Positions 24,288-62,807 of a stretch of 64,000 bases of DNA are shown piece by piece (position 1 is the stretch's first letter; each line of letters begins with the position of its first letter). The notes beneath the pieces are model-generated. The model was not told the origin of the DNA, did not search any database, and worked only from the letters and a program-made list of their open reading frames with translations. Source of the DNA: Halovivax gelatinilyticus (GTDB taxonomy: Archaea; Halobacteriota; Halobacteria; Halobacteriales; Natrialbaceae); contig NZ_CP101322.1 in assembly GCF_024300625.1 (NCBI RefSeq), forward strand, positions 1,253,992 to 1,317,991. The letters run 5' to 3'. The translations under genes were made by a program, and so were the position numbers.

Positions 24288-24537
24288 TGGGGTAGCGTAT
24301 CCAACGGCCGCATTTAAGAACATCGGTGTCTCGCCGCCGTGGACATCCGTGTCACGGACAGTCGCCGGCCGAACGCGACGACCGACCGGCGGTCATCGCG
24401 GGTGACAGCGTCCCGTGTCGGAGAGTGGGGTGAAAACGCCGAACTTCGACAGGCCATCGGTGGTTAGCTAGACCAGTGCGTTACGCATATGGCTAGTGGA
24501 AACGTACATTATTCCCGTCGAGAAATACACGAGTGGC

Positions 24538-25839
24538 ATGCATTCACAGACTCGTCGACGGTTTCTCGCTACGACCGGAATCACGTTCGGAGCCATCGGG
24601 AGCGCGACGACGGGGGCGACGACGTCGACGGAACGGTTCGTCGTCGACTCGACCAGCGTCGAGGACAGTTCCAGCGTGGAGGTCATCCACCGGCTCGATC
24701 CGATCGGCGTTAGCGTGGTGAGAGCCAGCGAGAACGCGGTCGATTCGATCGGCGCCGCGTACGCAGCCGACGCCGGTGGAACGTACGACCGGCCGACCGC
24801 ACCCGCGGGTGTAACCGGGGCATCGGCGGACGCGCTCGCCGACTCGGCGTCGCTCTACGACTATCAGTGGGACAAACACTCCCAGCAGATCGAGACGGTC
24901 CACCAGCGCACGCGCGGCGAGGGTACCAGGGTCGCGATAGTCGACAGTGGCGTCGCCGCCGGCCATCCGGATCTCGACGGCGCGGTGAACGCCGAACTCT
25001 CGAAGAATTTTACCGAGGACGACTACGGCGCGCCCGGCCCGTACGCCGGCTCGCACGGTACGCACGTTGCGGGCATCGTCGCCGCCGACGGCGACGTCCT
25101 CGGCTCGGCACCCGAAACGGAACTCGTCGACTGCCGGGTGTTCACGCCGAACGACGAGCGCGGTCTGTTCGCGTTCTTGGGTGACGTACTCGCCGCCGTC
25201 GTCTACAGCGCCGAAATCGGCTGTGAGGCGGCCAATCTCAGCCTCGGGGCCTACCTACCGCGCCAGGAACTCGGCTCGTTCTGGGGGAAGGCGATGAACC
25301 GAACGACGACCTACGCCGCCCAGCAGGGGACCGTGCTCGCCCACGCGGCCGGCAACACGGCGACCGACCTCCAGCACGACGGGCCGTACGTCGACACCAG
25401 CATGGCCGCTCGCGGTCTCTGCGTGAGTTCGACCGGCCCCGTCGCCTTCGAACCCGGCGCAGCGCCCGACGAACCGTTCTACACGCCCGCGTTCTACACG
25501 AATTACGGGACGAACGCGATCGATCTCGCCGCACCGGGCGGCAACGTCACCGAGGACGGCGACGTCTACGACGGCGTACTCAACTGTGTCGCCGACCCCG
25601 AGTTCGACGACGACGGCGAGTACCTCGGCGCGACCTACGGCCACGACTGGTTCCAGGGGACGTCGATGGCCGCCCCACAGGTCGCCAGCGCGGTCGCGCT
25701 GCTGGCGAGCGTCGACGCGCAGGACAACGCCAACCGACGAATGTCGACGCTCCGCCGGGTCGCAGACGTTCCAGCCACCCACGACAAACCGTTCTACGGC
25801 TCGGGCTACCTGGACACGCTCGCCGCGATCGACGACTGA
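24538..25839 (+). CDS. Tat-exported subtilisin-like serine protease (halolysin type)
   Basis: A 433-residue S8 peptidase. The N-terminus MHSQTRRRFLATTGITFGA is a twin-arginine signal, the usual route for folded haloarchaeal proteases. After a propeptide come the catalytic Asp (VAIVDSGVAAGHPD), His (GSHGTHVAGI), oxyanion Asn (HAAGNTATD) and Ser (GTSMAAPQVA). No C-terminal cohesin, dockerin or PKD domain is present, unlike the subtilases at 45.9-57.0 kb. The start at 24538 is chosen because it places the twin-arginine motif at residues 5-7. Confidence 0.93.
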   Translation: MHSQTRRRFLATTGITFGAIGSATTGATTSTERFVVDSTSVEDSSSVEVIHRLDPIGVSVVRASENAVDSIGAAYAADAGGTYDRPTAPAGVTGASADALADSASLYDYQWDKHSQQIETVHQRTRGEGTRVAIVDSGVAAGHPDLDGAVNAELSKNFTEDDYGAPGPYAGSHGTHVAGIVAADGDVLGSAPETELVDCRVFTPNDERGLFAFLGDVLAAVVYSAEIGCEAANLSLGAYLPRQELGSFWGKAMNRTTTYAAQQGTVLAHAAGNTATDLQHDGPYVDTSMAARGLCVSSTGPVAFEPGAAPDEPFYTPAFYTNYGTNAIDLAAPGGNVTEDGDVYDGVLNCVADPEFDDDGEYLGATYGHDWFQGTSMAAPQVASAVALLASVDAQDNANRRMSTLRRVADVPATHDKPFYGSGYLDTLAAIDD

Positions 25840-43847: not shown

Positions 43848-45659
43848 GTGCAACCAGCGCGGATCTTCGACGCCTTTCCCGCTCCGAGCTACCGCGGGAA
43901 CCAGGAACGAGCCCTCCAGGACATCCGAGACGCGTTCGCCGCCGACAACGACGTCGTCTTCGTGCGCGCGCCGACCGGCAGCGGCAAGTCGCTGCTGGCC
44001 AGAGCCATCGCCGGCTGCGCCCGAACGGTCGACGAAGCCGACCCGAGCGAGGCCGCCGGCGCCTACTACACCACGCCGCAGGTCTCCCAGCTCGACGACG
44101 TCGCCGACGACGCCCTCCTCGCGGACCTGAACATCATCCGCGGGAAGTCGAACTACAGCTGCATCCTCCCGGGCGAGGAGCAAACGCCGGTGAACCAGGC
44201 CCCCTGCGTGCGAGAACGGGGCTACGACTGCGACGTCAAACACCGCTGTCCGTACTTCTCGGATCGAGCCATCGCCTCGAACCGGGAAATCGCCGCGATG
44301 ACGCTCGCGTACTTCATGCAAACCGCCGGCAGCGAGGTGTTCAGAAAACGAGACGTCGTCGTGATCGACGAGGCACACGGCCTGGCCGAGTGGGCCGAGA
44401 TGTACGCGACGATCCACCTCGGCCCGCGAACGATCCCCTTCTGGGACGAGCTTCGCGTCCCCGACCTCGAAGCCGCAGACGACGATCCACTCGAACGGGC
44501 CGCCCGCTACGCCGAGAACCTCTCCGGCGTCTGCACCCGACGCAAAGACGAGCTGCTCGCTCAAGAGACGTTCACCCCGGCCGACGTCCGCGAGCGAGAC
44601 CGGCTTCAGGAACTCATCGGCGAACTCGACTGGTTCGTCTCGGACTACCGCGATCCGGGGAGTCCGACGACCTGGCTCGTCGACCAGCAACCCCTCGAAA
44701 CCGACGACGAACAGACCGGCGGCCCGGTGACGATCAAACCGATGAATCCGGAGCGATACCTCGCTCACACCGTCTGGGACCGGGGAAACAAGTTCGCGCT
44801 CCTCTCGGCGACCATCCTCAACAAGGAGGCCTTCTGCCACCAGATCGGCCTCAACCCGGCCGACGTCGCCCTCGTCGACGTCGGTCACACGTTCCCGGTC
44901 GAGAACAGACCGCTGTACGACGTCACGCAGGGGAAGATGACGTTCGAGCACCGCGAAGAGACATTGCCGAAGATCGCGCGAACCATCGTTCGCATCATGG
45001 CCGCCCACCCCGACGAGAAGGGGATCGTCCACGCACACTCCTACGACATTCAGCAGCGACTGGGCTCGCTACTCGCGGATTTCGGCGTCGAGACTCGCAT
45101 CCGAAGTCACGACCGCGACGATCGAGACGCCGCCCTCGAGCGGTGGAAAACGAGTGGCGACCCAGACGTCTTCCTCTCGGTGAAGATGGAAGAAGCGCTC
45201 GACTTAAAGGGCGACCTCGCCCGCTGGCAGGTCATCTGTAAAGCCCCGTTTCTCAACACGAGCGACTCGCGCGTCGCCCACCGCCTGGCCGACGGACAGT
45301 GGGCCTGGTACTACCGGGCGACCCTCCGGACGGTCATGCAGGCCTGCGGCCGAGTGGTGCGAGCGCCGGACGACTACGGTGCGACCTACCTCGCCGATTC
45401 GAGCCTGCTCGATTGCTTCGAGCGCGCCCGATCGGACATGCCCGACTGGTTCGCCACTCAGGTCGACCGGATGTCGGTCCCCGACCTCCCCACGTTCGAC
45501 CCGGCGGCCGCCCGCGGCGAATCCGCCGTGACCACGCCGACCGAACGGTCCGAGAGAGACGCGAGTGAGTCAACCGACCACGCGAACACCACGCGCACTC
45601 GGCCGTCCCGTCGGTCGAAATCGAGCCCGCTCGCGGACGTCTGGGACACCGACGGCTAG
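43848..45659 (+). CDS. XPD/DinG-type Fe-S DNA helicase
   Basis: A 603-residue superfamily 2 helicase with a GTG start. Walker A is APTGSGKS (41-48), the DEAH box lies at 174-177, and four Cys between them (C105, C120, C128, C134) are positioned like the iron-sulfur cluster of XPD, FancJ and DinG. The C-terminal motor domain shows GIVHAHSYDIQQ and VMQACGRVVRAPDDYG (motif VI). It would unwind 5'-tailed DNA in repair. The last 100 residues are disordered and end before the micro-protein on the opposite strand. It stands alone. Confidence 0.92.
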   Translation: MQPARIFDAFPAPSYRGNQERALQDIRDAFAADNDVVFVRAPTGSGKSLLARAIAGCARTVDEADPSEAAGAYYTTPQVSQLDDVADDALLADLNIIRGKSNYSCILPGEEQTPVNQAPCVRERGYDCDVKHRCPYFSDRAIASNREIAAMTLAYFMQTAGSEVFRKRDVVVIDEAHGLAEWAEMYATIHLGPRTIPFWDELRVPDLEAADDDPLERAARYAENLSGVCTRRKDELLAQETFTPADVRERDRLQELIGELDWFVSDYRDPGSPTTWLVDQQPLETDDEQTGGPVTIKPMNPERYLAHTVWDRGNKFALLSATILNKEAFCHQIGLNPADVALVDVGHTFPVENRPLYDVTQGKMTFEHREETLPKIARTIVRIMAAHPDEKGIVHAHSYDIQQRLGSLLADFGVETRIRSHDRDDRDAALERWKTSGDPDVFLSVKMEEALDLKGDLARWQVICKAPFLNTSDSRVAHRLADGQWAWYYRATLRTVMQACGRVVRAPDDYGATYLADSSLLDCFERARSDMPDWFATQVDRMSVPDLPTFDPAAARGESAVTTPTERSERDASESTDHANTTRTRPSRRSKSSPLADVWDTDG

Positions 45660-45942: not shown

Positions 45943-48900
45943 TCAGCCAGCGATGGCGGACACGTCGTGAGCACCGACGATCGTCTGGAGGATCAGGGTG
46001 ACGTCGGCAGGCGTGATGACACCGTCGCCGTTCATGTCGGCACACTCCTCGTAGAAGTCGTCGGTCGGCTCCATACCGACGATGTACTGCTGGGTGAGCG
46101 TCGCGTCGAAGGCCGTGATATCTCCGTCTGCGTTGACGTCGCCGGGTTCACACGGATGAGAACCGACCATTCCCGCAGCTGTCTCGACCGGGAGGTGGCC
46201 CTCGGCGTCGTTGATCGCCGTGTTTTCGTCGTCGAATGCGAGTTCGGTCTCGTCACCAGCCTCGCCGACGTGTTCGAACGAAATTCCCGCGAGCGTCGGC
46301 GCCTCGGTGTCGTGAGCCTGTGCCTGTGCGAGCGAGAGCGTCCCCTCGTCGTTGTCGATCGAGGTGACCGGGTCCTCGAAGTCGACGCCGGAGACCGACT
46401 CGACCTGGACGACGTCCGGATCGAACGCGATTTCGGCCTCGTAGCCGGCGACGGCTGCGCCGACGTCGATGTCGACGGCGGCGACCTCGCCGGGGAACAC
46501 CCGGTCCGAACCGATCGAGATGGTCGCCACCGGCTCGGCGGGATCGTCGTCGGAGAGGTACTGAACGCTGTTGGCGAGGATTGCGTCCGCGGCCTCGGTG
46601 TAGTCACCGTCACCGGCCCACGACGTGTAGCCAAGTCCCGACGCCAGGATCGTCGCGCTCTCATCGTCGATCGCAAACGCGTCGCCGGAGAGGCCATCAC
46701 CGTCGCCGATCGACGCGAGGACGTCGAACGTCGTCCCCTCGAACCAGGTGTGGTCGGCAAAGTCGCCCGTGTGGATCTCGACTTCCTCGCCAGCGTCACC
46801 GACGCCGTCGAAGATCGCGTGATCGGCTTCGAGTTCGTAGTAGACCGGAACCGGTCCGAAGTCGTCCTGGAAGGTCTCGGCCGGCTCACCCGTTACCTCC
46901 GAGTGGACCGGAATGCCGTTGCTGTCATCTCCCCACTGGTCAAGGTAGATCACACCGACCTCGTCACTACTCGTCGCGTCGATGAACGCCTCCGCCTCAT
47001 CGGGATCGAGGTGCTGGACGACGATCGCTTCGTACGTGTCTGGTGCATCGCTCGCGGTGATGACGTCGACGGCGTACTCGAGTGAAAGCGCCTCCGAGAG
47101 CGCCTCGGCGACGTCGTCACCGTGCGCGCCGAGATCGTCGAGGACACCGACGCGAGTGAGTTCCTCGAGGATGATCGTCGGTCCGGTCTCGACCGTCGTT
47201 TCGTCACCGAGGCCGGAAAGAGTGTGCTCCAGCCCGAGTTCGCCAGCGGTGCCGTCTGTCGTTTCCACGGCGATGTCGAGTTCGTCGGTCACCGGCTCGT
47301 CGAACGTCACCGTCTCGCCAAACTCGACGGCAGTTCCATCGACGGAAAGCGAGGCGTTCGCCGCGTCGTACTCGCCGACGAGATCGACCGCGATCGACTC
47401 CAGGTTGGCGACGGCGAGCGTCGTCGTGATCGTCTCACCGCCTTCGATTCGATTCGGTTGATCGGCGACGACTGCGCCATCGAGGACGCGGTCGAGCGCG
47501 AAGTCCGCGGTGACGACGTGATCGTCGTCCTCGATCGTCACCGTCGTCTCGGCGCTTTCGTGACCGAACGCCTCGACGGTCACGTCGTGGGTCCCGGGTA
47601 GCTGAGTGAGTTCGTACGTTCCATCCGCGTCGGTGACCGTGGTGTACTGCTCGTCGACGGTGACGAGCGCACCCTCGACCGGTTCGCCGGCGTCGTCGGT
47701 TACCGTGCCCTCGATTCCGGCGTTCGTATTCGCGAACGCGGTCGCGGTGTAGACATCGATGATCCCGTGGCCGTAGCGGGTGTCGACGCCGTTTATGGCG
47801 TCCTGTGCCTCAGATTCGTCCCAGAAGTCCGGCTTCCAGGCCGTCTCCGTTAGCAACGCCTGGACGGCGTAGGGGTCGAGTTCGTCGCTCGCAGCTCCCA
47901 TGATGGCGGCCGCCGCCCCGCTTTTGTGTGGAGCCGACATCGAGGTTCCGCTCACCTCACAGTACTCGACGTCGCCACACATCGAACCGCCAACCGCGTT
48001 CGCGCTGAAGACGTCGTGGCCCGGAGCGGCGATGTCCGGGGTGATGTACTGTTCCGGCCAGTCGGCTGGTGCCGCGTCACCGAAGACGGCCTCGGTATCG
48101 ATCAACATCCCACCCGAGAAGTCAGTCACCGCCAACTCTTCGCTCGTCGCGCCACTGGCGATCGAATCGTAAACCGCCCCGGGCGAGCCCGCGGTTCCCT
48201 CGCCGCTGTTTCCGATCGAGGCGACGACGAGCGTTCCGGCGGTCATCGAATTTCGAATCGGCTCGACGTACTGGCCCGTGATCGGTCCGCCGAGACTCAT
48301 GCTGAGGACATCCGAATCGGTCTCGACGGCCCACTCGAACGAGTCGAGGATTGCCTGTCCGTCACAGCTGTCGACCTGACAGACGCGTGCATTCGCCAGT
48401 TCCGCGTCCGGTGCAACGCCGATTGCGATGCCGGACTCGTTCGAGCCGGCGATCGTTCCACTGACGTGGGTGCCGTGGCCGTGATTGTCGACCGGCTCGT
48501 CCGCGTCGCCGACAAGATCGACCCAGCCGTCCTCAGCGGCGAGTTCGATATCGGGGTGTGAGTCGTCGACGCCGGTGTCCGCGACCACCACGCGGATGCC
48601 GTCGCCCGTCGCGTCGAACGCGTCCCACGCGTCCGGAGCGGCGATCTGGTCGAGTCCGTAGGTTACGTTCTCCGTCTCGGTCGCTTCGGTCGCCGACACC
48701 GGTTCCGGCGGTTCGAACTGGTGGTTCTCGTGGAGTCGTTCGACGCCGTCGATCCGAGCGAGCGCTTCGAGTTCGATCCGGTCGAGATCGGCCGTGATCA
48801 TAACGGCGTTCGTAATCCACCAGGTCCGCTCGACGGTCACGCCGTCTATCCCCTCGAGTCGGTCGAGGACGGGCGCTTGCGTCTGGCTCGCGTGAGTCTG

Positions 48901-49164
48901 TAAGCTGTCGATCACCGACTCACGATCGCCGTCTATCGCATGCGTCGGGTCCGACAGACGGAGCATAATTTCCGTCTCACCGCTCTCTCGATACAGCGAA
49001 TCGTCGATCTCGACCGCCGGTTGGGCCGTCTGCTGTTCCAGCGTCGGGTCAACCGCCGGTTGGTCCGACAGGTCGGTGCCAGCCGCAACCGCTGGCGTCA
49101 CGATCAAAATCGTGAGGACCAGGGCGAAAAGAACCGCCAGAAGTTGCTTCGTTCGTGTATTCAT
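45943..49164 (-). CDS. Secreted subtilase with ThuA-like, cohesin and dockerin domains (protease A)
   Basis: A 1073-residue secreted protein. Residues 1-28 are a Sec signal; 50-150 resemble an I9-type propeptide. The S8 domain (170-480) has Asp196, His230, Asn319 and Ser408 in intact motifs (ADTGVDD, NHGHGTHVSG, SIGNSGEG, SGTSMSAPH). A carboxypeptidase-regulatory-like beta domain follows (483-556), then a linker, a flavodoxin/ThuA-like domain (about 671-870), a cohesin-like module (880-1000) and a dockerin with two Ca loops (1009-1020, 1043-1054), bracketed by C1005 and C1041. A GGAAGGT precedes the ATG. It likely acts outside the cell, docked to a scaffold. The calls from 670 on rest on motifs. 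Confidence 0.93.
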   Translation of the reverse strand: MNTRTKQLLAVLFALVLTILIVTPAVAAGTDLSDQPAVDPTLEQQTAQPAVEIDDSLYRESGETEIMLRLSDPTHAIDGDRESVIDSLQTHASQTQAPVLDRLEGIDGVTVERTWWITNAVMITADLDRIELEALARIDGVERLHENHQFEPPEPVSATEATETENVTYGLDQIAAPDAWDAFDATGDGIRVVVADTGVDDSHPDIELAAEDGWVDLVGDADEPVDNHGHGTHVSGTIAGSNESGIAIGVAPDAELANARVCQVDSCDGQAILDSFEWAVETDSDVLSMSLGGPITGQYVEPIRNSMTAGTLVVASIGNSGEGTAGSPGAVYDSIASGATSEELAVTDFSGGMLIDTEAVFGDAAPADWPEQYITPDIAAPGHDVFSANAVGGSMCGDVEYCEVSGTSMSAPHKSGAAAAIMGAASDELDPYAVQALLTETAWKPDFWDESEAQDAINGVDTRYGHGIIDVYTATAFANTNAGIEGTVTDDAGEPVEGALVTVDEQYTTVTDADGTYELTQLPGTHDVTVEAFGHESAETTVTIEDDDHVVTADFALDRVLDGAVVADQPNRIEGGETITTTLAVANLESIAVDLVGEYDAANASLSVDGTAVEFGETVTFDEPVTDELDIAVETTDGTAGELGLEHTLSGLGDETTVETGPTIILEELTRVGVLDDLGAHGDDVAEALSEALSLEYAVDVITASDAPDTYEAIVVQHLDPDEAEAFIDATSSDEVGVIYLDQWGDDSNGIPVHSEVTGEPAETFQDDFGPVPVYYELEADHAIFDGVGDAGEEVEIHTGDFADHTWFEGTTFDVLASIGDGDGLSGDAFAIDDESATILASGLGYTSWAGDGDYTEAADAILANSVQYLSDDDPAEPVATISIGSDRVFPGEVAAVDIDVGAAVAGYEAEIAFDPDVVQVESVSGVDFEDPVTSIDNDEGTLSLAQAQAHDTEAPTLAGISFEHVGEAGDETELAFDDENTAINDAEGHLPVETAAGMVGSHPCEPGDVNADGDITAFDATLTQQYIVGMEPTDDFYEECADMNGDGVITPADVTLILQTIVGAHDVSAIAG

Positions 49165-49460
49165 CAGTTACCTTCCGATTCGTTGGATGCTGTTACTTCC
49201 ATGACTATCACGTACGCATGATATTTTCGAGAAGGTACATAAAATTACCCATGGTTGCACAATATGAATGTTTTGTTTAATCACCCCCATCGGTAGTGAG
49301 AGATTAGAATTCTGCATTATAGCGACCCTATCCTTCATTTTATTCGAGTGGGTCGGCCGCCCAGGGTACATTACTTCAAGATTTGTCACAAATATTGAGA
49401 TTTGTCCAGCTGAGCGTCAAGACCGTGAAAACAGTGACGACTGAAACCCGCCCCGGGAAG

Positions 49461-49736
49461 TTACCGTAGAACTCTACTACCCGCGAACAGCCCCGCACCG
49501 AGCAATGCGACGATGCCGGCAAATATAACGATGCCACCGGAGCCGTCGCTCAACCCAGACGTTGCGAGGTCTGGGGCGGAGTCATCGTCGTCGGATTGGT
49601 CGGCTGGTTCGTCGTCACTGTAACTCTCGACGCCGGTGGTGCCTGGGTCATCGGACTCGACGATTTCTAGGGTCTCGACGAGCGTTCCATCGACGGAGAG
49701 GTCGACCTGACCGACCTCGTCAAACGCGTAGGAGAC
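49461..49736 (-). other. In-frame continuation of the four-cohesin scaffold beyond a TAG
   Basis: After the TAG at 49739-49737 the same frame stays open for 91 codons to a TAA at 49461. It reads VSYAFDEVGQVDLSVDG, then an acidic Asp/Ser linker, and ends with a transmembrane helix (IVIFAGIVALLGAGLFAG) and RVLR. The first part aligns with residues 379-405 of the second scaffold, and the last with its membrane anchor. So this looks like the genuine C-terminus, cut off by a Ser-to-stop change or rescued by readthrough. Confidence 0.75.
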
Positions 49737-51674
49737 CTAGACCGTCGTCGATTCACCGCTCGAAAGCGTGACGTACTCGGTCGCAATGGATTCGACACCC
49801 GTCTCGACCGCGAGTTTGTGGACACCGTCGCCGTCACCGACGTTCGATAGTTCAACGTGTATTTCGACGGGCTCACCGACCGTTGCAGTGGTCGTAGAGA
49901 GATCGACGCTATCGACGGAAAACACCGCCTCCCCACTGACAGTCGGTGGTGGGAGCGAGATGCCGTCTGAATCGGAGACACGTTCCACGCCGATACTCGT
50001 TCCTTCCAGGTCAACCGGTACGTTGCTCGATTCATCGTTCACGCTCGTCTCCTCTGCGACGAATTTCAGGTCGGATTCACCCGTTGTGAGTACCTCGAAC
50101 TGGATCTCCGCCAGCGTCGGTGCGTCCTCACCAGTCGCTTGGGACTGCGTGAAAAAGACCGTGCCTTCGTCGTTGTCGACGTTGACGACCGGGTCGCCGA
50201 AGTCCACACCGACCACTTCGTCGACTGCGACGATTTCGGGGTCGAACGTTAGCTTCGCTTGGTAGCCCGCCGCGTTCTCGACCGTCGTCTCCAGTTCGAC
50301 GCCGATCGCATCACCGTCCTGCTCACCGGCAATCAGCGAAAGGACGTCATCAGTCGGTTCGTCGTCAGCCTCGACCGAGATCGACGTTCCTTCCAGATCG
50401 ACCGGAATGTCCTCCGGTGGCACCGAGCCATCGTTCACGCTCGTCTCCTCGGCGTCGAATTCCAGGTCGGTTTCACCCGTTTCGAGTACCTCGAACTGGA
50501 TCTCAGCTACCGTCGGTGCGTCGATTCCAGTTGCCTGTGACTGCGTGAAAAAGACCGTGCCTTCGTCGTTGTCGACGTTGACGACTGGGTCCCCGAAGTC
50601 GACACCGACCACTTCGTCGACTGCAACGATTTCGGGGTCGAACGTCACTTCTGCGCCGTAGCCCGCGACGTCATCCGCGTTCGTCTCGATCGTTACACCG
50701 ATCGCATCACCGTCTTGCTCGCCGGCGATCAGTGAGAGCACGTCATCAGTCGGTTCGTCGTCAGCCTCGACCGAGATCGACGTTCCTTCCAGATCGACCG
50801 GAATGTCTTCCGGTGGCACCGAGCCGTTGTTCACGCTCGTTTCGTCCGCAACGAACTCGATATCAGTCTCGCCCGTTTCGAGCACCTCGAACTGGATTTC
50901 AGCCAGCGTCGGCGCATCCTCACCCGTCGCCTGTGACTGGGTGAAAAAGACCGTGCCTTCGTCGTTGTCGACGTTGACGACCGGATCACCGAAGTCGACA
51001 CCGACGACCTCTTCGACCGCGACGATTTCGGGGTCGAACGTTACTTCGGCGCCGTATCCTGCGACGTCGTCGGCGTTCGTTTCCAGCTCGACGCCGATCG
51101 AATCGCCGTCTTGCTCGCCGGCGACCAGCGAGAGCACGTCCTCGGTCGGTTCGTCGTCAAACTCGAGCGTCGTTCCCGAGTGCGCGTCGATCTGGATGTC
51201 TTCCGGAGGAACGGAGCCGTCGTTGATCGACGTCTCATCCGGCACGAACTCGATGTCCGTCTCTGTCGCTTCGAGGACGTTGAATTCGATCTGTGCGAAA
51301 CGGGTCGGCGCGTCTTCGCCGGTCGCCTGCGACTGCGTGAAGTACACCCAGCCTTCCTCATTGTTTACGTTGACGACCGGATCGCCGAAGTCCTCACCGA
51401 CGATGTCGTCCACTTCGAGGACATCGGGATCGAACGTAACGTTCGCGCCGTAGCCGGCAACGTCGTCAGCGTTCGTATAGACGTCCACGATAGCCGATTC
51501 ATCTCCGACTTCGCTGGGTGAGAGCCCAACGTACGTATGCTGTACATCGCTTGCGGTCGACTGTGTCTCGTACGGGGACATCGTGTTATCCCCGCTAGCG
51601 ACCGGGGCGAAAACGGCCCCGACCATCAACACGGCCAGCACGACCGCGATCAGTTGACTTCTGTTCAGTATCAT
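49737..51674 (-). CDS. Four-cohesin surface scaffold protein, ends at in-frame TAG (scaffold A)
   Basis: A 645-residue protein: signal peptide (1-28, MILNRSQLIAVVLAVLMVG), four cohesin-like modules at about 47-172, 181-302, 314-434 and 446-565, then a CARDB-like domain that begins near 585 and is cut by the TAG. Each module carries GYGAEVTFDPEIV, DFGDPVVNVDNDEGTVFFTQSQATG and an acidic tail. Modules 2 and 3 are nearly identical. Cohesins bind dockerins, and both neighbouring subtilases end in dockerins, so this is the likely scaffold. Without the continuation at 49461-49736 it has no membrane anchor. The start at 51674 is chosen because it opens with the signal peptide. Confidence 0.9.
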   Translation of the reverse strand: MILNRSQLIAVVLAVLMVGAVFAPVASGDNTMSPYETQSTASDVQHTYVGLSPSEVGDESAIVDVYTNADDVAGYGANVTFDPDVLEVDDIVGEDFGDPVVNVNNEEGWVYFTQSQATGEDAPTRFAQIEFNVLEATETDIEFVPDETSINDGSVPPEDIQIDAHSGTTLEFDDEPTEDVLSLVAGEQDGDSIGVELETNADDVAGYGAEVTFDPEIVAVEEVVGVDFGDPVVNVDNDEGTVFFTQSQATGEDAPTLAEIQFEVLETGETDIEFVADETSVNNGSVPPEDIPVDLEGTSISVEADDEPTDDVLSLIAGEQDGDAIGVTIETNADDVAGYGAEVTFDPEIVAVDEVVGVDFGDPVVNVDNDEGTVFFTQSQATGIDAPTVAEIQFEVLETGETDLEFDAEETSVNDGSVPPEDIPVDLEGTSISVEADDEPTDDVLSLIAGEQDGDAIGVELETTVENAAGYQAKLTFDPEIVAVDEVVGVDFGDPVVNVDNDEGTVFFTQSQATGEDAPTLAEIQFEVLTTGESDLKFVAEETSVNDESSNVPVDLEGTSIGVERVSDSDGISLPPPTVSGEAVFSVDSVDLSTTTATVGEPVEIHVELSNVGDGDGVHKLAVETGVESIATEYVTLSSGESTTV

Positions 51675-52118
51675 GGCATAGTATGCCACCGATGATGGTG
51701 ACTCATTGTATGGACTATCACCGCCCATAATAGTCTTTTCCATGGTACTTATAATTGTAATTATTTGGGTTGGGGCGATCAATTCACTAATAGATTGTCG
51801 GTTTAAAGCCCTGGCGGGCAGTATCGGCCGTATCCAGGCAAATGACCAGGATAGAACGGTCGTCGAGTCAGTTCTGTCCGTTGGATTATCCTCACCAGTG
51901 CCAACGGACGATCGTCGAACGACTCGGCTCGGTCACGAACGTCAGTGACAGTTTCGAGTAGGCACTGGATAGTTTCTGACGACGAGCCGATGATAGGCCA
52001 GAAGCCCACTACCTGACGAATCGCCCGCAAGAATAGACACGCGGTTGTGCTCTCGGCTTCGGACAGAATTGGCCGATATCACTCCCACTCGAAAACAGCT
52101 CAAAGCCGAACAACGGTG
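51675..52118. other. Intergenic region between the two scaffold genes
   Basis: About 440 nt. The first 110 nt are AT-rich and hold the scaffold A promoter (GACTATTATGGG on the minus strand at 51722-51735). A 75-codon minus-strand frame at 51803-52030 has no recognisable family. Nothing else is supported. Confidence 0.55.
51722..51735 (-). promoter_or_regulatory. Promoter element of scaffold A
   Basis: The minus strand reads GACTATTATGGGCG about 50-60 nt before the ATG at 51674. The same TATTA(N)GGG core occurs before the scaffold B and protease B genes. Confidence 0.4.
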
Positions 52119-53531
52119 TCAGTAACGCCGAACGGCGAACACTGCCATCGTCACGAACGCGATGAGGGCCACACCGACGCCGAACCCGGCGAGTCCGTCA
52201 CTCGCCCCATCGTCGCTGGCGTCAGTTCCGTCGTCCGCAGGGTCTGTCCCGTCAGACTCGTCGTCAGAACCGACTCCGTCATCGGTGTCGGCCTCGTCGT
52301 CCGTATCCGACGTAGACTCGCTCACGTCGACCGTTCCGACGGGCTCGTCGTTGACGAATAACTCGTAGGCGCCGGCTTCGGTGAACGTATAGGTGATCGA
52401 GACCGTCTCGGAATCGTCCCCGGAAAGGAGGACACTTTCGGTGACGAGTGAATTCCCATCGGCCTGTAACGTGAGTTCGTAATTGCCGGCCTGTTCGCCG
52501 ACGTTCGTCACGTCGACGGTAACCTCGATCGAGTCACCAACGACGACGGCAGACGACGACAGGTCGACGACCTCGAACTCGAATTCGGCCGGATCAGGCT
52601 CCGGCGGCGGTGGTGGAAGGCCGCCGCCTCCGTCGTCCGCTTCTTCCTCCACGTCGAGAGTCGTTCCGACGAACTCGACCAGCACGTTGCTCGATTCGTC
52701 GTTCACACCCGTCTCGTCGGCGTCGAAGGCCAGGTCGGTTTCACCGGAGTCGTGAGTCGAAAACTGGATCTCGGCGAAGGTTGGTCGGTCTTCACCAGTC
52801 GCCTGCGACTGCGTGAAAAACACCGTTCCCTCGTCGTTGTCGACGTTGACGACCGGGTCGTCGAAGTCGATGCCGACGACGTCCTCTACGGTAACGACGT
52901 CCGGATCGTAGGTGACGAACGCCTGATAGCCGGCTGCATTCTCGACGGTCGTTTCGAGCGTGACCCCAATCTCGGTTCCGTCCTGTTCGCCGGCAACGAG
53001 CGAAAGCGTGTCGTCGTTCGGTTGCTCGTCTTCGAGTTCGACGGTAATCTCGGTTCCGTCGAGATCGACGTCGATGTCTTCGGGTGGAACCGCTCCATCG
53101 TTGAGAGTCGTGTCGTCCTCGAGGAACGACAGTTCCGAGTCACCGCTCGCCAGAACGGTGAACTCGAACTCGACCAGGGTCGGATTAGCGTCACCGACGG
53201 CCTGAGACTGCGTAACGAAGACCCAGCCGTTCCGGTTGTCGATATTCGTAACTGGATCTCCGAAGTCGACCCCGGAAACGTTCTCCTCGTCGATCGCGAG
53301 GATATCCGGGTCGAACGTTACGTTCGCGCCGTAGCCAGCGACGTCGTCCGCATCAGCTTCGAGCGTGACGGCGATGGTCTCACCCTCCTGCTCGTCGGCG
53401 ACGAGTGAGAGGAGCCCCTCCTCGTCGGACGAGTCGCTCACCGAATCGGCGCTCGCCGCTGTCGCACCACCCAGCGGAACAAGTAGTATTCCGGCCAATA
53501 CAACGGTCAGAACGACGGCAATGAGTCGCAT
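52119..53531 (-). CDS. Two-cohesin membrane-anchored scaffold protein (scaffold B)
   Basis: A 470-residue protein: signal peptide (1-27), cohesin-like modules at about 40-165 and 175-295, a Pro-rich hinge (GGGGLPPPPPEPDP), a CARDB-like beta domain (315-403), an acidic Asp/Ser/Thr linker, and a C-terminal helix (LAGFGVGVALIAFVTMAVFAV) ending RRY. The layout is that of a surface scaffold held in the membrane and projecting through the S-layer. Its CARDB region aligns with scaffold A and shows what the amber codon there replaces (Ser378, TCG). The start at 53531 follows a GGGGGAAA ribosome-binding-like run. Confidence 0.92.
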   Translation of the reverse strand: MRLIAVVLTVVLAGILLVPLGGATAASADSVSDSSDEEGLLSLVADEQEGETIAVTLEADADDVAGYGANVTFDPDILAIDEENVSGVDFGDPVTNIDNRNGWVFVTQSQAVGDANPTLVEFEFTVLASGDSELSFLEDDTTLNDGAVPPEDIDVDLDGTEITVELEDEQPNDDTLSLVAGEQDGTEIGVTLETTVENAAGYQAFVTYDPDVVTVEDVVGIDFDDPVVNVDNDEGTVFFTQSQATGEDRPTFAEIQFSTHDSGETDLAFDADETGVNDESSNVLVEFVGTTLDVEEEADDGGGGLPPPPPEPDPAEFEFEVVDLSSSAVVVGDSIEVTVDVTNVGEQAGNYELTLQADGNSLVTESVLLSGDDSETVSITYTFTEAGAYELFVNDEPVGTVDVSESTSDTDDEADTDDGVGSDDESDGTDPADDGTDASDDGASDGLAGFGVGVALIAFVTMAVFAVRRY

Positions 53532-53580
53532 TGATTTCCCCCGGGGAAGTAGTTGTGACACTGTTAATTCACACATCATT

Positions 53581-53606
53581 GTATATATAACTTGCCCGTA
53601 ATATAC
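53581..53606 (-). promoter_or_regulatory. Promoter of scaffold B
   Basis: On the minus strand GTATATTACGGGCAAG is followed by GTTATATATAC, the latter about 50 nt before the ATG at 53531. The TATTACGGG core is shared with the other genes of the cluster. Confidence 0.45.
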
Positions 53607-53823
53607 TTTATCATTTTGTTTGGCTAGGGGAATGAATTATGAAGAGCGCGGAGATTCGGCAGCATCACGTATCTTTCATTTTGTGTTCAGAGAACGATGT
53701 TACGCCTCCAGTCATGGTTTATGTAGTTTCAGAGAACGCAACACCGGTGACTCCCGGTACAATTCGATTGTACGAAAAATGAAGAATAGGCCAGAACCGT
53801 CGGTAGGCTGTCCGAGCGTCGGA

Positions 53824-56800
53824 TCAGGCCCAGATACCGACGATGATCTGGTGGATCGCCGTCACGTCCGCTGGTGTGATCTCGCCATCTCCCGTCAGGT
53901 CACCGCACGCTGGGTTGACGAAGCCTTCGGGGTCGAGGCCGGCAATGTACTGCTGGGTCAACGTTGCGTCGAGTGAGTTCACTTCGCCGTCGCCGTTGAC
54001 GTCACCCGGAAGCGCACAGTCCGTTCCGACTTGCAGCGATCCCGCGAGGTACTCCGCCGGCTCGACGACGCTCTCTTCGTCGTTAAGCTGCGTGTTCTCC
54101 TCGACGAAGAAAAGATCGGTCGAGTCGCCGTCCTCGCCGACAGCCTCGAACGAGAGTTCAGCCAGCGTCGGTGCGTCGACGCCGCTCGCCTGACTCATCG
54201 CCAGTCCGAGTACGCCGTCGTCATCGTCGTTGACGACCGGGTCGTTCAGGTCGACGCCCTCTGCGCCGACGAACTCGAAGACGTCCGCGTCGTAGTGGAT
54301 TTCGGCCTGGTAGCCAGCGATGTTCGCCAGGTCCGTATCGAGTTCGACCGTCGCAACATCGCCTTCGGCTGCACTCGCCTCACCGAGACGGACGAAGCCT
54401 TCCGCCGGCTCGTCCTCAGCGTCGACCGTCACCGCTGCCGTATCGCTGTCGTCTTCGCTGCTGACCGTGAGGTCGCCGCTACCGGCGTCACCGGCCTGCG
54501 TGTTCCACGTGAGAGAAATCTCGGTCGAATCGCCGAGATCGAGCGAGACCGCTTCGGAGTCGACGACCGCGCCGTCGAAGTCCGCGAGTTCGATCGTCTG
54601 CTCGACGACGTCAGCCGCGAGCGGGTCGTCGGGTTCCTCGACGTGTTCGACTTCGACGTCGACGACGAGGTCCTCACCTTCGGTCACCGGGGAGTTGGTC
54701 TCGAGGATCGAAACCTCGAACTCACCGTCTTCCGGCGGCTCGGGTTCGCCATCAACGAGGTACTCGATCGAGTTTACCAGCACCGCGACCGACTCGTCGG
54801 TCACGTCGCTGGCGCTGACGTACTCGCTCAGACCTGACGAGGCCGCGAGTACCGTCGCACTCGAATCGTCGACCGCCAGTCCGCTACCGACCGACGTGCC
54901 GTCGACCGTCACGCCCGCGATCACGTCGAACGACGTGCCCGTCATCCACGCGTGATCGGCGTACTGATCCGTGTGGATCGGGATCTCGTCGCCGAGACCG
55001 TCGACGATCTCGTGTGACTGCTCGACGCTGTAGTACGGACCGTCCGCACCCTGCGAGAAGTCCTCGTCCACGCCGTCGACGTCGTTGCTGACGCTGGCGA
55101 ACTGCGTCACGCCGTTTGCGTCACCCGCCGACTCTTCGTACATGTCCAGGTAGATGACGCCCACGTCGTCGCCGCTCGTCGCGTCCACGAAGTCACCGAC
55201 GTTCGAACTGTCGATGGTCTGGACGACGAAGACGTCGTGCTCGGCGTCGAGTGCTTCGGATGACGAAAGCGTCTCGACGAAGACATCCTCACCGGTCGCA
55301 TCGTCGAGCAGACTCGCGACGTTGCCCGCGTAAGAGCCGTCGCCGATCACGCCGACTGCGGCGAACTCTTCGAGTTCGGCGAGCGAGAAGTCCGCCGTCA
55401 CCGTCTCGCCCTCGCCGACGCTCACGGTCTGACTGTCCGACTCGTAGCCGAACGCCTCGGCGGTCACGTCGTACGTGTCAGCGAGGACGCTCAGTTCGTA
55501 GTTACCGTTCGCGTCCGTCTCGTCGCTCGAACTGCCCGCCGAGACGGTCGCGCCTTCGATCGCCGCACCAGTATCGTCGGTCACCGTTCCCTGGATGATT
55601 CCGGGGTCGGCGCCGACCGCTGCCACGGCCGCGTGCAGGTCGACGATACCGGTCCCGTAGCGCGAATCGCGCTCGGTGTCGGGGTTGTAGTGCATCGCGC
55701 TGTTCGGGTCCCAGAAGTCCGGCTTCCAGGCCGTATCCATCATAATATCCTGGACGTCCCAGGGGTCTAGCGCATCGTTCGTCGAGAGGATCGCCGTTGC
55801 CACGCCTGCTTTGTGTGGCGAGGACATCGACGTGCCCGACATCTGCTGGTAGCCGCCACCAGGCTGGGCACTCACAACGGCCGCTCCGGGAGCCGCGACG
55901 TCAGGCGTGATGAACGAGCCGGCCGGCCAGTGGCTCATCCAGTTACCGCCGAAGTCGCCTTCCTGTAGGAGCGTACCGCCGGAGAAGCTGGTCACCTGCA
56001 GGTTTTCGTTGGTCGCACCGCTTGCGATCGAGTCGTACGGCGCACCGGGCGAACCTGACGTTCCCTCACCGTCGTTGCCGATGGAGGAAACGACGAGCGT
56101 ACCGGCGTCCATCGAATTGTAGACGACGTCGACGTACGAGCCGGTGATAGGTCCGCCAAGACTCAGGTTAATTACGTCGGAGTCGGTGTCGACGGCGAAC
56201 TGGAACGACTCCATAATCGCGGCGCCCTGACATCCGGATCCAGTACACACTCGAACGTTCGCGAGTTCGGCGTCAGGAGCGACACCGATCGCCGTTCCGG
56301 AATCGGCACCGCCGGCAATCGTGCCGCTCACGTGCGTTCCGTGTCCGTGGTTGTCGACTGGCGTCGACGAACCGCCGACCGGATCGGACCAGCCGTCTTC
56401 GGCGGCGAGTTCGATGTCCGGGTGATCGGCGTCGACGCCGGTATCGGCAACGACGACGCGGACGTTCTCCCCGGTCGCACCGAAGTCGCCCCAGGCTTCT
56501 GGGACGTTGATCTGCTCGAGCCCGTACGTGTAGCTCTGCTGTGGATCGACGTCGTTTTCGACGTCGACCGGCTCGGGCGCGTCGACGGTGAGGTGTGGCT
56601 CGATCGATTCGATGCCGTCGATCTCCGCGAGTTCCTCTACGCTCACTCGGTCGAGGTCCGCCGTCACGTGAATCGAGTTTCGGATCCAGAACGTGTCCTC
56701 GACGTCGACCGCGTCGTATCGGTCGAGTTCGCTTATGACCGGCTCCTGAGCCAGATCAGCTTGCGTCTTGAGCGCATCGATCACTGCATCCGAATCCCCC

Positions 56801-57027
56801 TGTCGATCGGTCTCTGCGATGTCAGGGAGGAACAAGAACAGTTCCGTTTCGCCGGTTTCGTCGTAGAGCGATTCGTCGATATCCGTCGTCACTGCGTCGC
56901 CGGATGCTGACTGTACCGATGTCGTGGTGAGATCGTCACCCGACGCCATCCCGATCGGGGCGAATACCGCACCCGTCATCAGAATAGCCAGCGTTACCGC
57001 GAGCAGTTGTTTATGTGCTGACTTCAT
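53824..57027 (-). CDS. Secreted subtilase with ThuA-like, CARDB-like, cohesin and dockerin domains (protease B)
   Basis: A 1067-residue paralogue of protease A. Signal peptide 1-29; propeptide-like 50-150; S8 domain with Asp195, His229, Asn318 and Ser400 (ADTGVDADHPD, NHGHGTHVSG, SIGNDGEG, SGTSMSSPH); carboxypeptidase-regulatory-like domain 477-549; ThuA-like domain 557-760; an extra CARDB-like domain (770-870) absent from protease A; cohesin-like module 877-1000; dockerin loops 1009-1020 and 1043-1054 with C1004 and C1041 outside them. A TATA box CTTATATTAGGG lies at 57072-57083. It is probably secreted by Sec and fixed at the cell surface by dockerin binding. All catalytic residues are present, so it should be active. 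Confidence 0.93.
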   Translation of the reverse strand: MKSAHKQLLAVTLAILMTGAVFAPIGMASGDDLTTTSVQSASGDAVTTDIDESLYDETGETELFLFLPDIAETDRQGDSDAVIDALKTQADLAQEPVISELDRYDAVDVEDTFWIRNSIHVTADLDRVSVEELAEIDGIESIEPHLTVDAPEPVDVENDVDPQQSYTYGLEQINVPEAWGDFGATGENVRVVVADTGVDADHPDIELAAEDGWSDPVGGSSTPVDNHGHGTHVSGTIAGGADSGTAIGVAPDAELANVRVCTGSGCQGAAIMESFQFAVDTDSDVINLSLGGPITGSYVDVVYNSMDAGTLVVSSIGNDGEGTSGSPGAPYDSIASGATNENLQVTSFSGGTLLQEGDFGGNWMSHWPAGSFITPDVAAPGAAVVSAQPGGGYQQMSGTSMSSPHKAGVATAILSTNDALDPWDVQDIMMDTAWKPDFWDPNSAMHYNPDTERDSRYGTGIVDLHAAVAAVGADPGIIQGTVTDDTGAAIEGATVSAGSSSDETDANGNYELSVLADTYDVTAEAFGYESDSQTVSVGEGETVTADFSLAELEEFAAVGVIGDGSYAGNVASLLDDATGEDVFVETLSSSEALDAEHDVFVVQTIDSSNVGDFVDATSGDDVGVIYLDMYEESAGDANGVTQFASVSNDVDGVDEDFSQGADGPYYSVEQSHEIVDGLGDEIPIHTDQYADHAWMTGTSFDVIAGVTVDGTSVGSGLAVDDSSATVLAASSGLSEYVSASDVTDESVAVLVNSIEYLVDGEPEPPEDGEFEVSILETNSPVTEGEDLVVDVEVEHVEEPDDPLAADVVEQTIELADFDGAVVDSEAVSLDLGDSTEISLTWNTQAGDAGSGDLTVSSEDDSDTAAVTVDAEDEPAEGFVRLGEASAAEGDVATVELDTDLANIAGYQAEIHYDADVFEFVGAEGVDLNDPVVNDDDDGVLGLAMSQASGVDAPTLAELSFEAVGEDGDSTDLFFVEENTQLNDEESVVEPAEYLAGSLQVGTDCALPGDVNGDGEVNSLDATLTQQYIAGLDPEGFVNPACGDLTGDGEITPADVTAIHQIIVGIWA

Positions 57028-57325: not shown

Positions 57326-58534
57326 TCACTCGATCCGAGCGTCGACGACGACGTGAACGACGCCGGCGCTATGCGTCTTCACGCGCCTGCGTGCGTCCAC
57401 TGTGAACGTCTTTCCAGCGTCCTCGATGGCTCGGTCGAGTCGGTCGAGCGGACCTTCCCACAGCGCGTCTTCGTGGACGGCCTCGTGATAGTGGACGGTT
57501 CCCCCGGGAACGACCGCCTCTAGGGCCGCCGGGAGGTAGGTAGCGGCCGTCTGTTCTCGCCACTCCGCGTGCTGACTCTCGACGTCGCGGCCCTCATCGG
57601 CATCGATGCCGTAATACCCCATGACGACGCGGTCGGCGTCGACGGTCCTCGCAACGTCCCGACAGTCGGCGTTGTACGCCGCGATGCGATCCGTCACGTC
57701 GTTTCTGACCGCGTTCTCGAGCAAGTATCGAAAGGCGGTCGGATTCGCCTCGGTCGCCGTCACGTGTGCGCCGGCCCGAGCCATCGGAAGCGTGAAATAG
57801 CCGATTCCGGCGAACATATCGAAGACCCGCTCGGCGGCGTCTAACCCGCCTTCGCCGGCCGAATCCGCGGTGGCTGACACCTCACCGGAATCCGAAACAG
57901 GATCCAAATCGGCATTCGCCGATCCAGAAACGACCCGACCCATTCGGACGCGTTCGGCCTGATTTCCTGGCGAAAACATGACCGCTGCGGGATCGAGTCC
58001 GTACGCCGTGCCGTGTTCGACATGGACCGTCTCCGTCTCTCGCTCGCCAGCAAGGTGGCGCGTTCGTGGCTCCCGGAAGGGGCCGCCGATTCCCTCGTCG
58101 GCCAGCACGGTCTCGGCGTCGCCGTGGAGTTCCAAAAGCGCCTCAGCGACCGCCCCCTCGTCCGGGCAATCGGACGGAATCGTGACGAGGACGACCGACC
58201 CGATCACGGCCCACGAGCCGGGTGCCCGCGCCCGTTCCGCCTCGCTCCATCCCCGTTCGGCGAGCATCGCGTCGAGATTCGTCGGCCGAAACGTCGGCTC
58301 GACCTGCCGAACGACGCGGTCGATCCGGGTCTCTGCGGGCGGCTCCGTCACCGGAAGCGCCGTTCGCTCGTCGTCGAACGACCGCACCGCCCGCCGATCG
58401 TCGTAGATCCCTTCCGCGCGAAGCGATTCGATCGCAATCTCCGTGCGAGCCTTCGGAACGACGGCCGCGAGTGGGTTTTCGCCGGTTGACTCCGACGGAT
58501 CGATATCGGCGTCCGAATCCGTATTCTTACTCAT
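57326..58534 (-). CDS. taw2: Class I tRNA methyltransferase-fold enzyme, Taw2-like
   Basis: A 402-residue COG2520-type protein. VMFSPGNQAERVRMG and DMFAGIGYFTLPMARAGAHVTATEANPTA are the SAM-binding core shared by Trm5 and TYW2/Taw2. At the motif IV position the sequence is VMGYYG rather than the NLP typical of Trm5 methyltransferases, which points to Taw2, the enzyme that moves an aminocarboxypropyl group from SAM to the wyosine base at position 37 of tRNA-Phe. The start overlaps the nmd3 stop by 8 nt, so they are co-transcribed. A Trm5 role is the alternative. Confidence 0.85.
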   Translation of the reverse strand: MSKNTDSDADIDPSESTGENPLAAVVPKARTEIAIESLRAEGIYDDRRAVRSFDDERTALPVTEPPAETRIDRVVRQVEPTFRPTNLDAMLAERGWSEAERARAPGSWAVIGSVVLVTIPSDCPDEGAVAEALLELHGDAETVLADEGIGGPFREPRTRHLAGERETETVHVEHGTAYGLDPAAVMFSPGNQAERVRMGRVVSGSANADLDPVSDSGEVSATADSAGEGGLDAAERVFDMFAGIGYFTLPMARAGAHVTATEANPTAFRYLLENAVRNDVTDRIAAYNADCRDVARTVDADRVVMGYYGIDADEGRDVESQHAEWREQTAATYLPAALEAVVPGGTVHYHEAVHEDALWEGPLDRLDRAIEDAGKTFTVDARRRVKTHSAGVVHVVVDARIE

Positions 58535-59657
58535 CGCTCTCTTCAGGCGGCAGGACGTGCAGGCCGGCGCGACTCTTCAGTACGGGTACCGTCTCGGCCT
58601 CCGGATCGACGTACGCCGGCCGGGCGATCGTCTTCGCCTCGTACGTCTCGGGGTCTAGCACCTGGATCGAGTGTTCGTCTTCGACTGTGACCACCGTCGT
58701 CTCCTCCCCGTCGTCGCGCGTCCCCAGCCGCCGGGCCTCGGGTGCGATCCCTTCCTCGTACGACGCCTCGTATCGCTCGCCGGTCCGCAGCCGAACGCCC
58801 TTGAGGTTGCCGCGGGCGCTTCTGACGAGGACCGGACCATCGTCGTCGTCAGCGAGGTCGATCACCTCGCCCGGGACGTACGGCGGGAGCCTGACCGCGA
58901 AGGTGACGCGGTACACTTCGTTTCCGTCCTCGTCTTCCGTAACGAGCGTCTCCGAGTCGGAAACGGTGCCACCGAACTCTTCTCTGACCTTGTTCGCGAC
59001 TTTCTTGCCGATTTTGGTGGTCGAGAGCTTGATGTTCAACCCGTCGTCGACCTCGCCCATCTCGGTGACGAACGCGTTTCGATCGCCGGTGGCCTCCATC
59101 TCCGCGACGACCGCGTTCGCGATCTCCTTCGTCCGGTCGATCTCCGTCGCCGTCGGCGTTCGGTCCGCGGCGCGAAGCTGGACGATGCTCGCGTAGTAGT
59201 TGCCCGCGATTCGACCGCACCGCGTGCAGGTGCCCCGGCCGATCGTCACGGGGACGACGACCGTCTCGTCGACCGGTTCGTCCCTGACCAGTCCGGTGAA
59301 CAGACAGTGCATTCGGATCGTGTTCTGATCGACGTGCTCCGGGTCGACCTGCCAGGCGACGTCGTCGACGTCGACGTGGACCGAAAGCGCCTCCGTGACG
59401 GCGTCGATCGCGACGTCGGTGTAATCGTCGGCGTCGATGTCGACCCACCGGTTTCCGCGTCTAACCGCGCCACATCGCGCGCACACGAGCACCTCAAGCG
59501 TGTCGGGGGCGTCGACGAACTCGAAGTCGTCGAAGTAACACGACTGACAGAGGTCGACCGACGCCGACGGCCGAAGCGGATCGGCTGCCGATTCCTCGGG
59601 CGGCCGATCCGGAACCGGGTCCCCACACCGAGGACAGAACGCGCGTGATTCGCTCAT
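58527..59657 (-). CDS. nmd3: NMD3-family 50S ribosome-associated protein
   Basis: A 376-residue archaeal NMD3 homologue. Four CxxC pairs (CPRCGDP, CQSCY, CARCGAV and CTRCGRI) form two zinc-binding treble clefs in the first 160 residues; the next domains show GDRNAFVTEMGEVDDGLNIKLSTTKIGKKVANKVREEFGG and a C-terminal OB-like barrel. In eukaryotes NMD3 is the 60S export adaptor; in archaea it is presumed to assist large-subunit maturation. It is the first gene of a two-gene operon with the Taw2-like enzyme. Confidence 0.93.
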   Translation of the reverse strand: MSESRAFCPRCGDPVPDRPPEESAADPLRPSASVDLCQSCYFDDFEFVDAPDTLEVLVCARCGAVRRGNRWVDIDADDYTDVAIDAVTEALSVHVDVDDVAWQVDPEHVDQNTIRMHCLFTGLVRDEPVDETVVVPVTIGRGTCTRCGRIAGNYYASIVQLRAADRTPTATEIDRTKEIANAVVAEMEATGDRNAFVTEMGEVDDGLNIKLSTTKIGKKVANKVREEFGGTVSDSETLVTEDEDGNEVYRVTFAVRLPPYVPGEVIDLADDDDGPVLVRSARGNLKGVRLRTGERYEASYEEGIAPEARRLGTRDDGEETTVVTVEDEHSIQVLDPETYEAKTIARPAYVDPEAETVPVLKSRAGLHVLPPEESDE

Positions 59658-61775: not shown

Positions 61776-62807
61776 ATGGCAGACGTAGACCTCGAAACCC
61801 TGCCGGGCGTCGGCCCGGCCACGGCGGACAAGCTTACAGACGCGGGCTTTGACTCCTATCAGAGTCTGGCGGTCGCCTCGCCCTCCGAACTCTCGAACAC
61901 GGCGGACGTCGGCGAGTCGACCGCCGCGGACATCGTCAACGCCGCCCGCGACGCGGCGGACGTCGGCGGCTTCGAGACCGGCTCAGCCGTCCTCGAACGG
62001 CGCAACAAGATCGGCAAACTCACCTGGCACGTCGACGAGGTGGACGACCTCCTCGGCGGCGGCATCGAGACCCAGTCGATTACCGAGGTGTACGGCGAGT
62101 TCGGCTCCGGGAAGTCTCAGGTCACCCACCAGATGGCCGTCAACGTCCAGCTTCCGCAGGAAGTCGGCGGCCTCCACGGCAGCGCGATGTTCATCGACTC
62201 CGAGGACACCTTCCGACCCGAGCGGATCGACGACATGGTTCGCGGACTGCCCGACGAGGCCATCGACGCCGCGCTCGAAGACCGCGAGATCGAAGGATCG
62301 GCCGACGACGAGGAAGCCGTCGACGAACTCGTCGAGTCCATCTTAGAGAAGATCCACGTCGCGAAGGCGTTCAACTCCAACCACCAGATGCTGCTCGCCG
62401 AGAAGGCGAAAGAACTCGCCAGCGACCTCGAAGACACCGAGTACCCCATCCGGCTGCTCTGCGTCGACTCGCTGACCGCCCACTTCCGCGCGGAGTACGT
62501 CGGCCGTGGCGAACTCGCGCCCCGCCAGCAGAAGTTAAACAAGCACCTCCACGACATCGACAAGGTCGGCAACCTCTACAACGCAGCCGTCATCGTCACC
62601 AACCAGGTCGCCTCGAACCCCGACTCGTTCTTCGGCGACCCGACCCAGCCGATCGGCGGCAACATCCTCGGCCACAAGTCCACCTTCCGCATCTACCTCC
62701 GGAAGTCCAAGGGCACGAAGCGGATCGTCCGCCTCGTCGACGCGCCTAACCTCGCCGACGGCGAGGCCGTCATGCGCGTCGAGGACGAGGGACTCGTTCC
62801 GGAATAA
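61776..62807 (+). CDS. radA: DNA repair and recombination protein RadA
   Basis: A 343-residue archaeal recombinase. The N-terminal helix-hairpin-helix ([17 protein letters not shown]) is followed by the RecA core: Walker A GEFGSGKS at 107-114, Walker B in LLCVDSLTA, and L2-type DNA-binding regions ([25 protein letters not shown]). It forms filaments on ssDNA and carries out strand exchange in homologous recombination. No intein is present, unlike some haloarchaeal relatives. The ATG at 61776 (MADVD) is preferred to a GTG 6 nt earlier because it fits the TATA spacing. Confidence 0.97.

Follow-up and report, generated by a model that had tools for sequence, protein, structure and literature searches.

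The window analyzed here is a 64,000-nucleotide stretch of Halovivax gelatinilyticus DNA (assembly GCF_024300625.1, contig NZ_CP101322.1, positions 1,253,992 to 1,317,991 of the forward strand). It contains a cluster of four consecutive genes that combine subtilases with cohesin and dockerin modules. All four genes, and every feature described within them, lie on the minus strand. The outer genes encode two secreted subtilases, S1 (45943-49164, 1073 residues) and S2 (53824-57027, 1067 residues). Between them are C4 (49737-51674), a four-cohesin scaffoldin, and C2 (52119-53531, likely starting at ATG 53531), a two-cohesin scaffold or anchor protein. An initial annotation of this DNA had described four such genes, with two subtilases of about 1070 residues ending in dockerins and two intervening proteins built from four and two cohesin-like modules, and its coordinates and layout proved correct. 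Four points in the present analysis were absent from it: cohesins on the enzymes themselves, an in-frame TAG in C4, a probable ATG start for C4, and one calcium loop of divergent sequence.

Both subtilases have the same layout, which in S2 runs from a signal peptide and propeptide through the S8 domain, a CarboxypepD_reg domain, a linker and a cohesin to a C-terminal dockerin. Pfam identified the Peptidase_S8 domain at residues 187-467 of S1 (47764..48606, PF00082 E=9.1e-44) and residues 186-460 of S2 (55648..56472, PF00082 E=6.9e-43), along with the CarboxypepD_reg domain and the type I dockerin of both, and the catalytic D/H/S triad motifs are intact in each. The dockerins score over the Pfam cut-off in S1 (45991..46146, PF00404 E=6.8e-11) and S2 (53848..54009, PF00404 E=4.1e-11) and carry the duplicated calcium loop-helix motif of the type I family. 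All four loops are legible, DVNADGDITAFD and DMNGDGVITPAD in S1 and DVNGDGEVNSLD and DLTGDGEITPAD in S2. One of the four reads DxTxDG and departs from the DxNxDG type proposed initially. An additional S8 subtilase, which has no dockerin, lies at 24496-25839 on the plus strand of the window (107 bits), and the genome contains 15 S8 matches. Most dockerins of the genus, and most of those in Haloarchaeobius, have one cysteine ahead of each calcium loop (xC..PGDV, xCxDL), and Natrialba-type dockerins are without them in the dockerin alignment; these residues could possibly form a disulfide clasp that joins the two dockerin halves.

Each subtilase also carries a single cohesin directly upstream of its dockerin, with a gap of only a few residues in the alignment. 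In S2 this module (residues 876-994, 54046..54402) scores 24.4 bits on PF00963, for which the cut-off is 24.1, and was also recognized by AlphaFold2 modeling and Foldseek. Its counterpart in S1 (residues 878-1002, 46159..46533) was found with PF00963, with the profile of the window's own modules and by alignment of the modules. A model of the S2 tail, with a high predicted local distance difference test score (pLDDT) and a predicted template-modeling score (pTM) of 0.72, folds as a cohesin followed by dockerin helices, as checked with Foldseek; the placement of the two modules relative to each other was not used for or against docking in cis.

The modules of C4 and C2 align with one another and with the enzyme-borne cohesins. 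PF00963, the alignment and the profile all support both C2 cohesins (53031..53420 and 52629..53015) and the first and fourth cohesins of C4 (51156..51539 and 49962..50348), while the third (50364..50744) is supported by the alignment and the profile. Searching the source genome with PF00963 gave eight matches, three of them over the cut-off; seven are in the cluster, where the remaining modules fall just below the cut-off, and the eighth is weak and lies elsewhere. A profile built from the window's own modules gave exactly eight matches in the genome, all of them inside the cluster. Orthologous modules in congeners score higher on PF00963, with up to 66 bits for two modules together and 167 bits for a set of eight.

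We examined the fold of this family using the second cohesin of C4 (50760..51140), which AlphaFold2 modeled with a pLDDT of 97 and a pTM of 0.89. Searching the PDB with this model in Foldseek returned cohesins throughout the 50 best matches listed, some of them inside larger cohesin-containing chains, with a probability of 1.00 and query TM-scores that reach about 0.8. Among them are cellulosomal cohesins, the cohesin of Archaeoglobus fulgidus (2xdh) and those carried by Clostridium perfringens enzymes (2jh2, 2w1n and 2vo8); sequence identity to solved cohesins is about 16%. The scaffold modules are thus predicted to have the nine-stranded jelly-roll cohesin fold. The initial annotation had allowed that they might instead fold as unrelated beta sandwiches, and the structural matches place this module among the cohesins.

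The same locus in related genomes shows how the cluster varies. Because this GC-rich DNA yields wrong-strand reading frames, open reading frames in this comparison were picked with an acidity filter. In all three genomes of the genus that have the island, it sits between a DEAD_2-type helicase gene (DEAD_2/Helicase_C_2, 43848..45659 on the plus strand of the window) and a TRM5/TYW2 methyltransferase and NMD3-family gene pair (57326..59657, minus strand). In two further congeners (G032 and G029) these flanks are directly adjacent with no genes between them, forming a clean empty site. The island of congener G030 encodes an 8-cohesin scaffoldin (1258 residues) along with three PGF-CTERM-like proteins of one cohesin each, and five of its six dockerin proteins are S8 proteases. 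That of G031 is larger still: besides a 14-cohesin scaffoldin (2087 residues) and single-cohesin anchors it has a protein with three cohesins, and S8 proteases make up eight of its ten dockerin proteins. Non-enzyme cohesins and dockerin genes therefore number 6 and 2 in the source genome, 11 and 6 in G030, and at least 19 and 10 in G031. All docked enzyme domains recognized by Pfam across the three islands are S8 proteases. The 8- and 14-cohesin scaffoldins begin with the same MILNRSQLIAV signal as C4, which we take to be their orthologue, and because this start is common to all three, C4 probably begins at the ATG at 51674 and not at the TTG at 51782. In addition, two congener cohesin-dockerin proteins (L044 8306-10132 and L046 15998-17479) have first segments of about 290 residues without a Pfam match, which could possibly be a new cargo domain.

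The initial annotation had suggested a search for the four-gene layout in other haloarchaeal genomes. Expanded counterparts were found at the G030 and G031 locus, and the arrangement most often seen in the rest of Halobacteria is a unit of two genes, one for a subtilase-cohesin-dockerin protein and one for a membrane anchor with a single cohesin. Such a unit occupies the same neighbourhood in several further genera of the family. With the anchor/scaffold cohesin profile, relatives were detected in 60 of 391 Halobacteria genomes, and more than five cohesins occur only in the three congeners. Pfam dockerins are present in 59 of the 60 cohesin-positive genomes versus 113 of the 331 others (Fisher p=4e-23, uncorrected for relatedness). 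At the loci examined outside the genus, 39 of 41 dockerin genes adjoin a same-strand single-cohesin gene, nearly always one with a C-terminal membrane tail; this proportion is biased upward, as cohesins were used to locate the loci and several of them come from one genome present in two collections. Other archaea of the phylum are rich in cohesins, and none of the matches listed there is an open frame with more than three. Separately, two other haloarchaeal neighbour pairs (L090 4356-7288 and L091 3386-6675) each place a dockerin protein (432 and 657 residues) beside a cohesin protein with a PGF-type tail, and tethering of this kind may extend to other cargo. Orphan dockerins are also common: many haloarchaeal genomes (G066 and G008, for example) have up to 15 dockerin matches and zero cohesins of this family.

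In a tree of 95 modules, 38 of 40 enzyme-borne cohesins fall into one clade (support 97/89), apart from the cohesins of anchors and scaffolds, and the S1 cohesin groups with those of helicase-adjacent subtilases in congeners. The two classes also differ at defined positions. T68 and S70, a T-x-S motif on strand 6, are invariant in 55 of 55 anchor/scaffold cohesins, whereas the motif is mostly replaced in the enzyme cohesins, with A or S at position 68 and A or S at position 70. Strand 3 also differs, with N33 and T/S35 in one class versus varied residues in the other. In solved type I cohesin-dockerin complexes, the sheet of strands 8-3-6-5 contacts the dockerin. Since T-x-S lies on strand 6 of this sheet, we propose that the subtilase dockerins dock on the cohesins of anchors and scaffolds, where they would bind this candidate face. 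The conservation difference between the entire 8-3-6-5 face and the other sheet is weak (p=0.026), and the class-specific T-x-S signal is far clearer. By the same comparison, the enzyme cohesins would either bind something else or serve structurally.

We consider it likely that the products of the cluster form a multi-protease complex outside the cell, on its surface, that is assembled by cohesin-dockerin pairing. This reading is supported by the predicted fold and by synteny, by the way cohesin and dockerin genes co-occur and, in congeners, co-expand, and by the conserved candidate binding face. In such a complex, signal peptides would export the subtilases, which would take up calcium outside the cell and plug their C-terminal dockerins into the cohesins of C4 and C2. 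The PGF-CTERM-like tail would keep C2 on the cell surface, and C4 could gather up to four proteases; without a tail, as it is encoded, C4 would be released or held indirectly. Proteolysis concentrated at the surface would allow peptides to be taken up and not lost. The arrangement most likely originated from the two-gene unit of a subtilase-cohesin-dockerin and a single-cohesin anchor, with tandem duplication of cohesins and enzymes following within the genus.

Two features of the initial proposal require revision. It had assigned cohesins to scaffolds and dockerins to enzymes, which fits C4, C2, S1 and S2 but is incomplete, as the enzymes carry cohesins themselves. It had also called the cluster a self-contained surface protease assembly. 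The protease cargo is supported; the self-containment is not, because one of the three dockerins over the cut-off in the source genome is encoded about 0.25 Mb away from the cluster (G000:C1:1561030-1561194, L048 6010-13251), in a 2413-residue protein with a beta-propeller, CARDB repeats and a C-terminal dockerin. Similar propeller-dockerin proteins of 2000-2600 residues occur in G031 (L076, L077 and L058). These are possibly non-catalytic partners of the scaffold that bind substrate or surface.

Surface location differs between the two scaffold proteins. C2 has a CARDB domain (52326..52568, PF07705 E=5.1e-6) and a PGF-CTERM-like sorting and transmembrane tail (52125..52202), and the source genome has an archaeosortase A (ArtA) gene (290.9 bits); from the tail and this gene, C2 is likely held at the surface. 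The C4 frame is broken by an in-frame TAG (49737-49739) inside a CARDB-like domain. Past this codon the frame continues to a TAA at 49461 (49461..49736) and would supply the rest of the domain, an acidic linker and a transmembrane stretch. The homologous frame past the TAG keeps a coding-like composition, and the codon-position composition of the C4 body is normal. The stop is either a sequence error or a genuine nonsense mutation of recent origin; in the latter case C4 would be released rather than anchored, since the TAG cuts off its membrane tail.

Several of these observations weigh against a surface complex. In addition to the broken C4 frame, the C4 tail has no PGF motif, and the C2 tail scores 22.5 bits on TIGR04126, just under the cut-off of 24.5, with LAGF in place of PGF; an AGF motif is also found in a relative of the same family (L073). 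Sockets exceed plugs in the source genome, with six scaffold cohesins for two local dockerins and one elsewhere. The 113 genomes that have dockerins and no cohesin of this family mean that a dockerin alone implies no such complex, and the bias in the adjacency count reduces its weight.

One alternative is that the enzyme-borne cohesins bind the dockerin of the next subtilase, so that proteases would link into chains or networks independently of a scaffoldin. We hold this to be a doubtful but compatible addition to the surface complex. Nearly every dockerin subtilase across the class has a cohesin beside its dockerin, and the interacting cohesins on C. perfringens enzymes provide a precedent. 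However, the separate clade of the enzyme cohesins and their lack of the invariant T-x-S suggest a different partner or a structural role, comparable to that of the X module beside type II dockerins, and several congener enzymes have a dockerin and no cohesin. Considering the two classes jointly, one arrangement, which we also hold to be doubtful, is that T-x-S cohesins fix the enzymes to the cell while enzyme cohesins recruit further dockerin proteins, giving surface chains or branched arrays.

Simple tethering, in which each dockerin fixes one protease to one surface cohesin and the system is decaying in the source organism, seems improbable to us. One enzyme to one anchor is indeed the layout outside the genus, and the C4 stop codon, the missing PGF motif and the absence of the island from two congeners are all consistent with decay. 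However, both catalytic triads and the dockerin calcium loops are kept, the C4 body has a normal codon-position composition, and one-to-one tethering is hard to square with 8- and 14-cohesin orthologues that retain their PGF tails and are accompanied by five and eight docked proteases. We find it very unlikely that the modules serve as generic beta-sandwich spacers, with dockerins that act only as calcium-stabilized clamps within the molecule or caps at its C terminus: the window's cohesins do score near the Pfam cut-off and few residues separate enzyme cohesin from dockerin, but Foldseek ranks cohesins specifically and not generic Ig folds, the polar residues on strands 3 and 6 are conserved, and cohesin and dockerin genes co-occur and co-expand.

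The surface complex we propose resembles the clostridial cellulosome (e.g. CipA) in its multi-cohesin, non-catalytic scaffoldin, dockerin-bearing secreted enzymes encoded alongside, predicted surface attachment, and shared cohesin and dockerin folds. It differs in that its cargo consists of S8 proteases rather than glycoside hydrolases, its putative anchor is an archaeal PGF-CTERM-like tail and its enzymes also carry cohesins. Pfam found no glycoside hydrolase or carbohydrate-binding module (CBM) in the cluster proteins, and S8 was the sole enzyme domain recognized; because of this cargo, we do not class the system as a cellulosome. The A. fulgidus cohesin shares the archaeal cohesin fold, and we know of no protease cargo or multi-cohesin scaffoldin reported for it. 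The C. perfringens cohesins are likewise carried on secreted, non-cellulosomal enzymes, but those enzymes are glycosidases and there is no tandem scaffoldin. A closer parallel is Candidatus Stygibacter (Cloacimonadota), which has a scaffoldin-like system with tandem cohesins and dockerins on an S8 and a C25 peptidase; it is bacterial, known from a metagenome-assembled genome, and has mixed peptidase and glycosidase cargo and CBM domains in its scaffoldin (PMC8542988). Scaffoldin-like proteins of anaerobic methanotrophic (ANME) archaea have up to five cohesins, and their common dockerin partners are ATP-binding cassette (ABC) transporter binding proteins (PMC9012536), whereas the haloarchaeal scaffoldins have 4, 8 and 14 cohesins and share one locus with enzymes that are all proteases. 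PMC9012536 cites Peer et al. 2009 for the statement that archaea lack large multi-cohesin scaffoldins; the 8- and 14-cohesin proteins exceed the cohesin numbers reported for archaea in the literature we found. A Halobacterium subtilisin with dockerin repeats (NP_280653) was noted in a 2008 survey, which gave no cohesin partner or cluster for this haloarchaeal S8 protease (PMC2605481). Searches of an open-access collection, which omits most subscription papers, turned up no account of a scaffoldin system for proteases in haloarchaea.

In the remainder of the window, ARAGORN called a 92-base tRNA-Ala(CGC) at 61901-61992 (minus strand). It lies inside a RadA-like gene and has no Rfam tRNA match, and is probably a false call.

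The cohesins and dockerins of archaea have been described as enigmatic. This locus offers a concrete case, in which orthologous scaffoldins carry 4, 8 or 14 cohesins and the enzymes are a coherent set of subtilases, and the role of archaeal cohesins becomes directly testable with two modules of fewer than 130 residues. Salt-stable cohesin-dockerin pairs and protease assemblies could result. The comparison across genomes also gives a plausible account of how a two-gene tether could have evolved into a scaffold for many enzymes. If the arrangement of two cohesin classes is correct, these islands would be an archaeal equivalent of the cellulosome dedicated to proteases.

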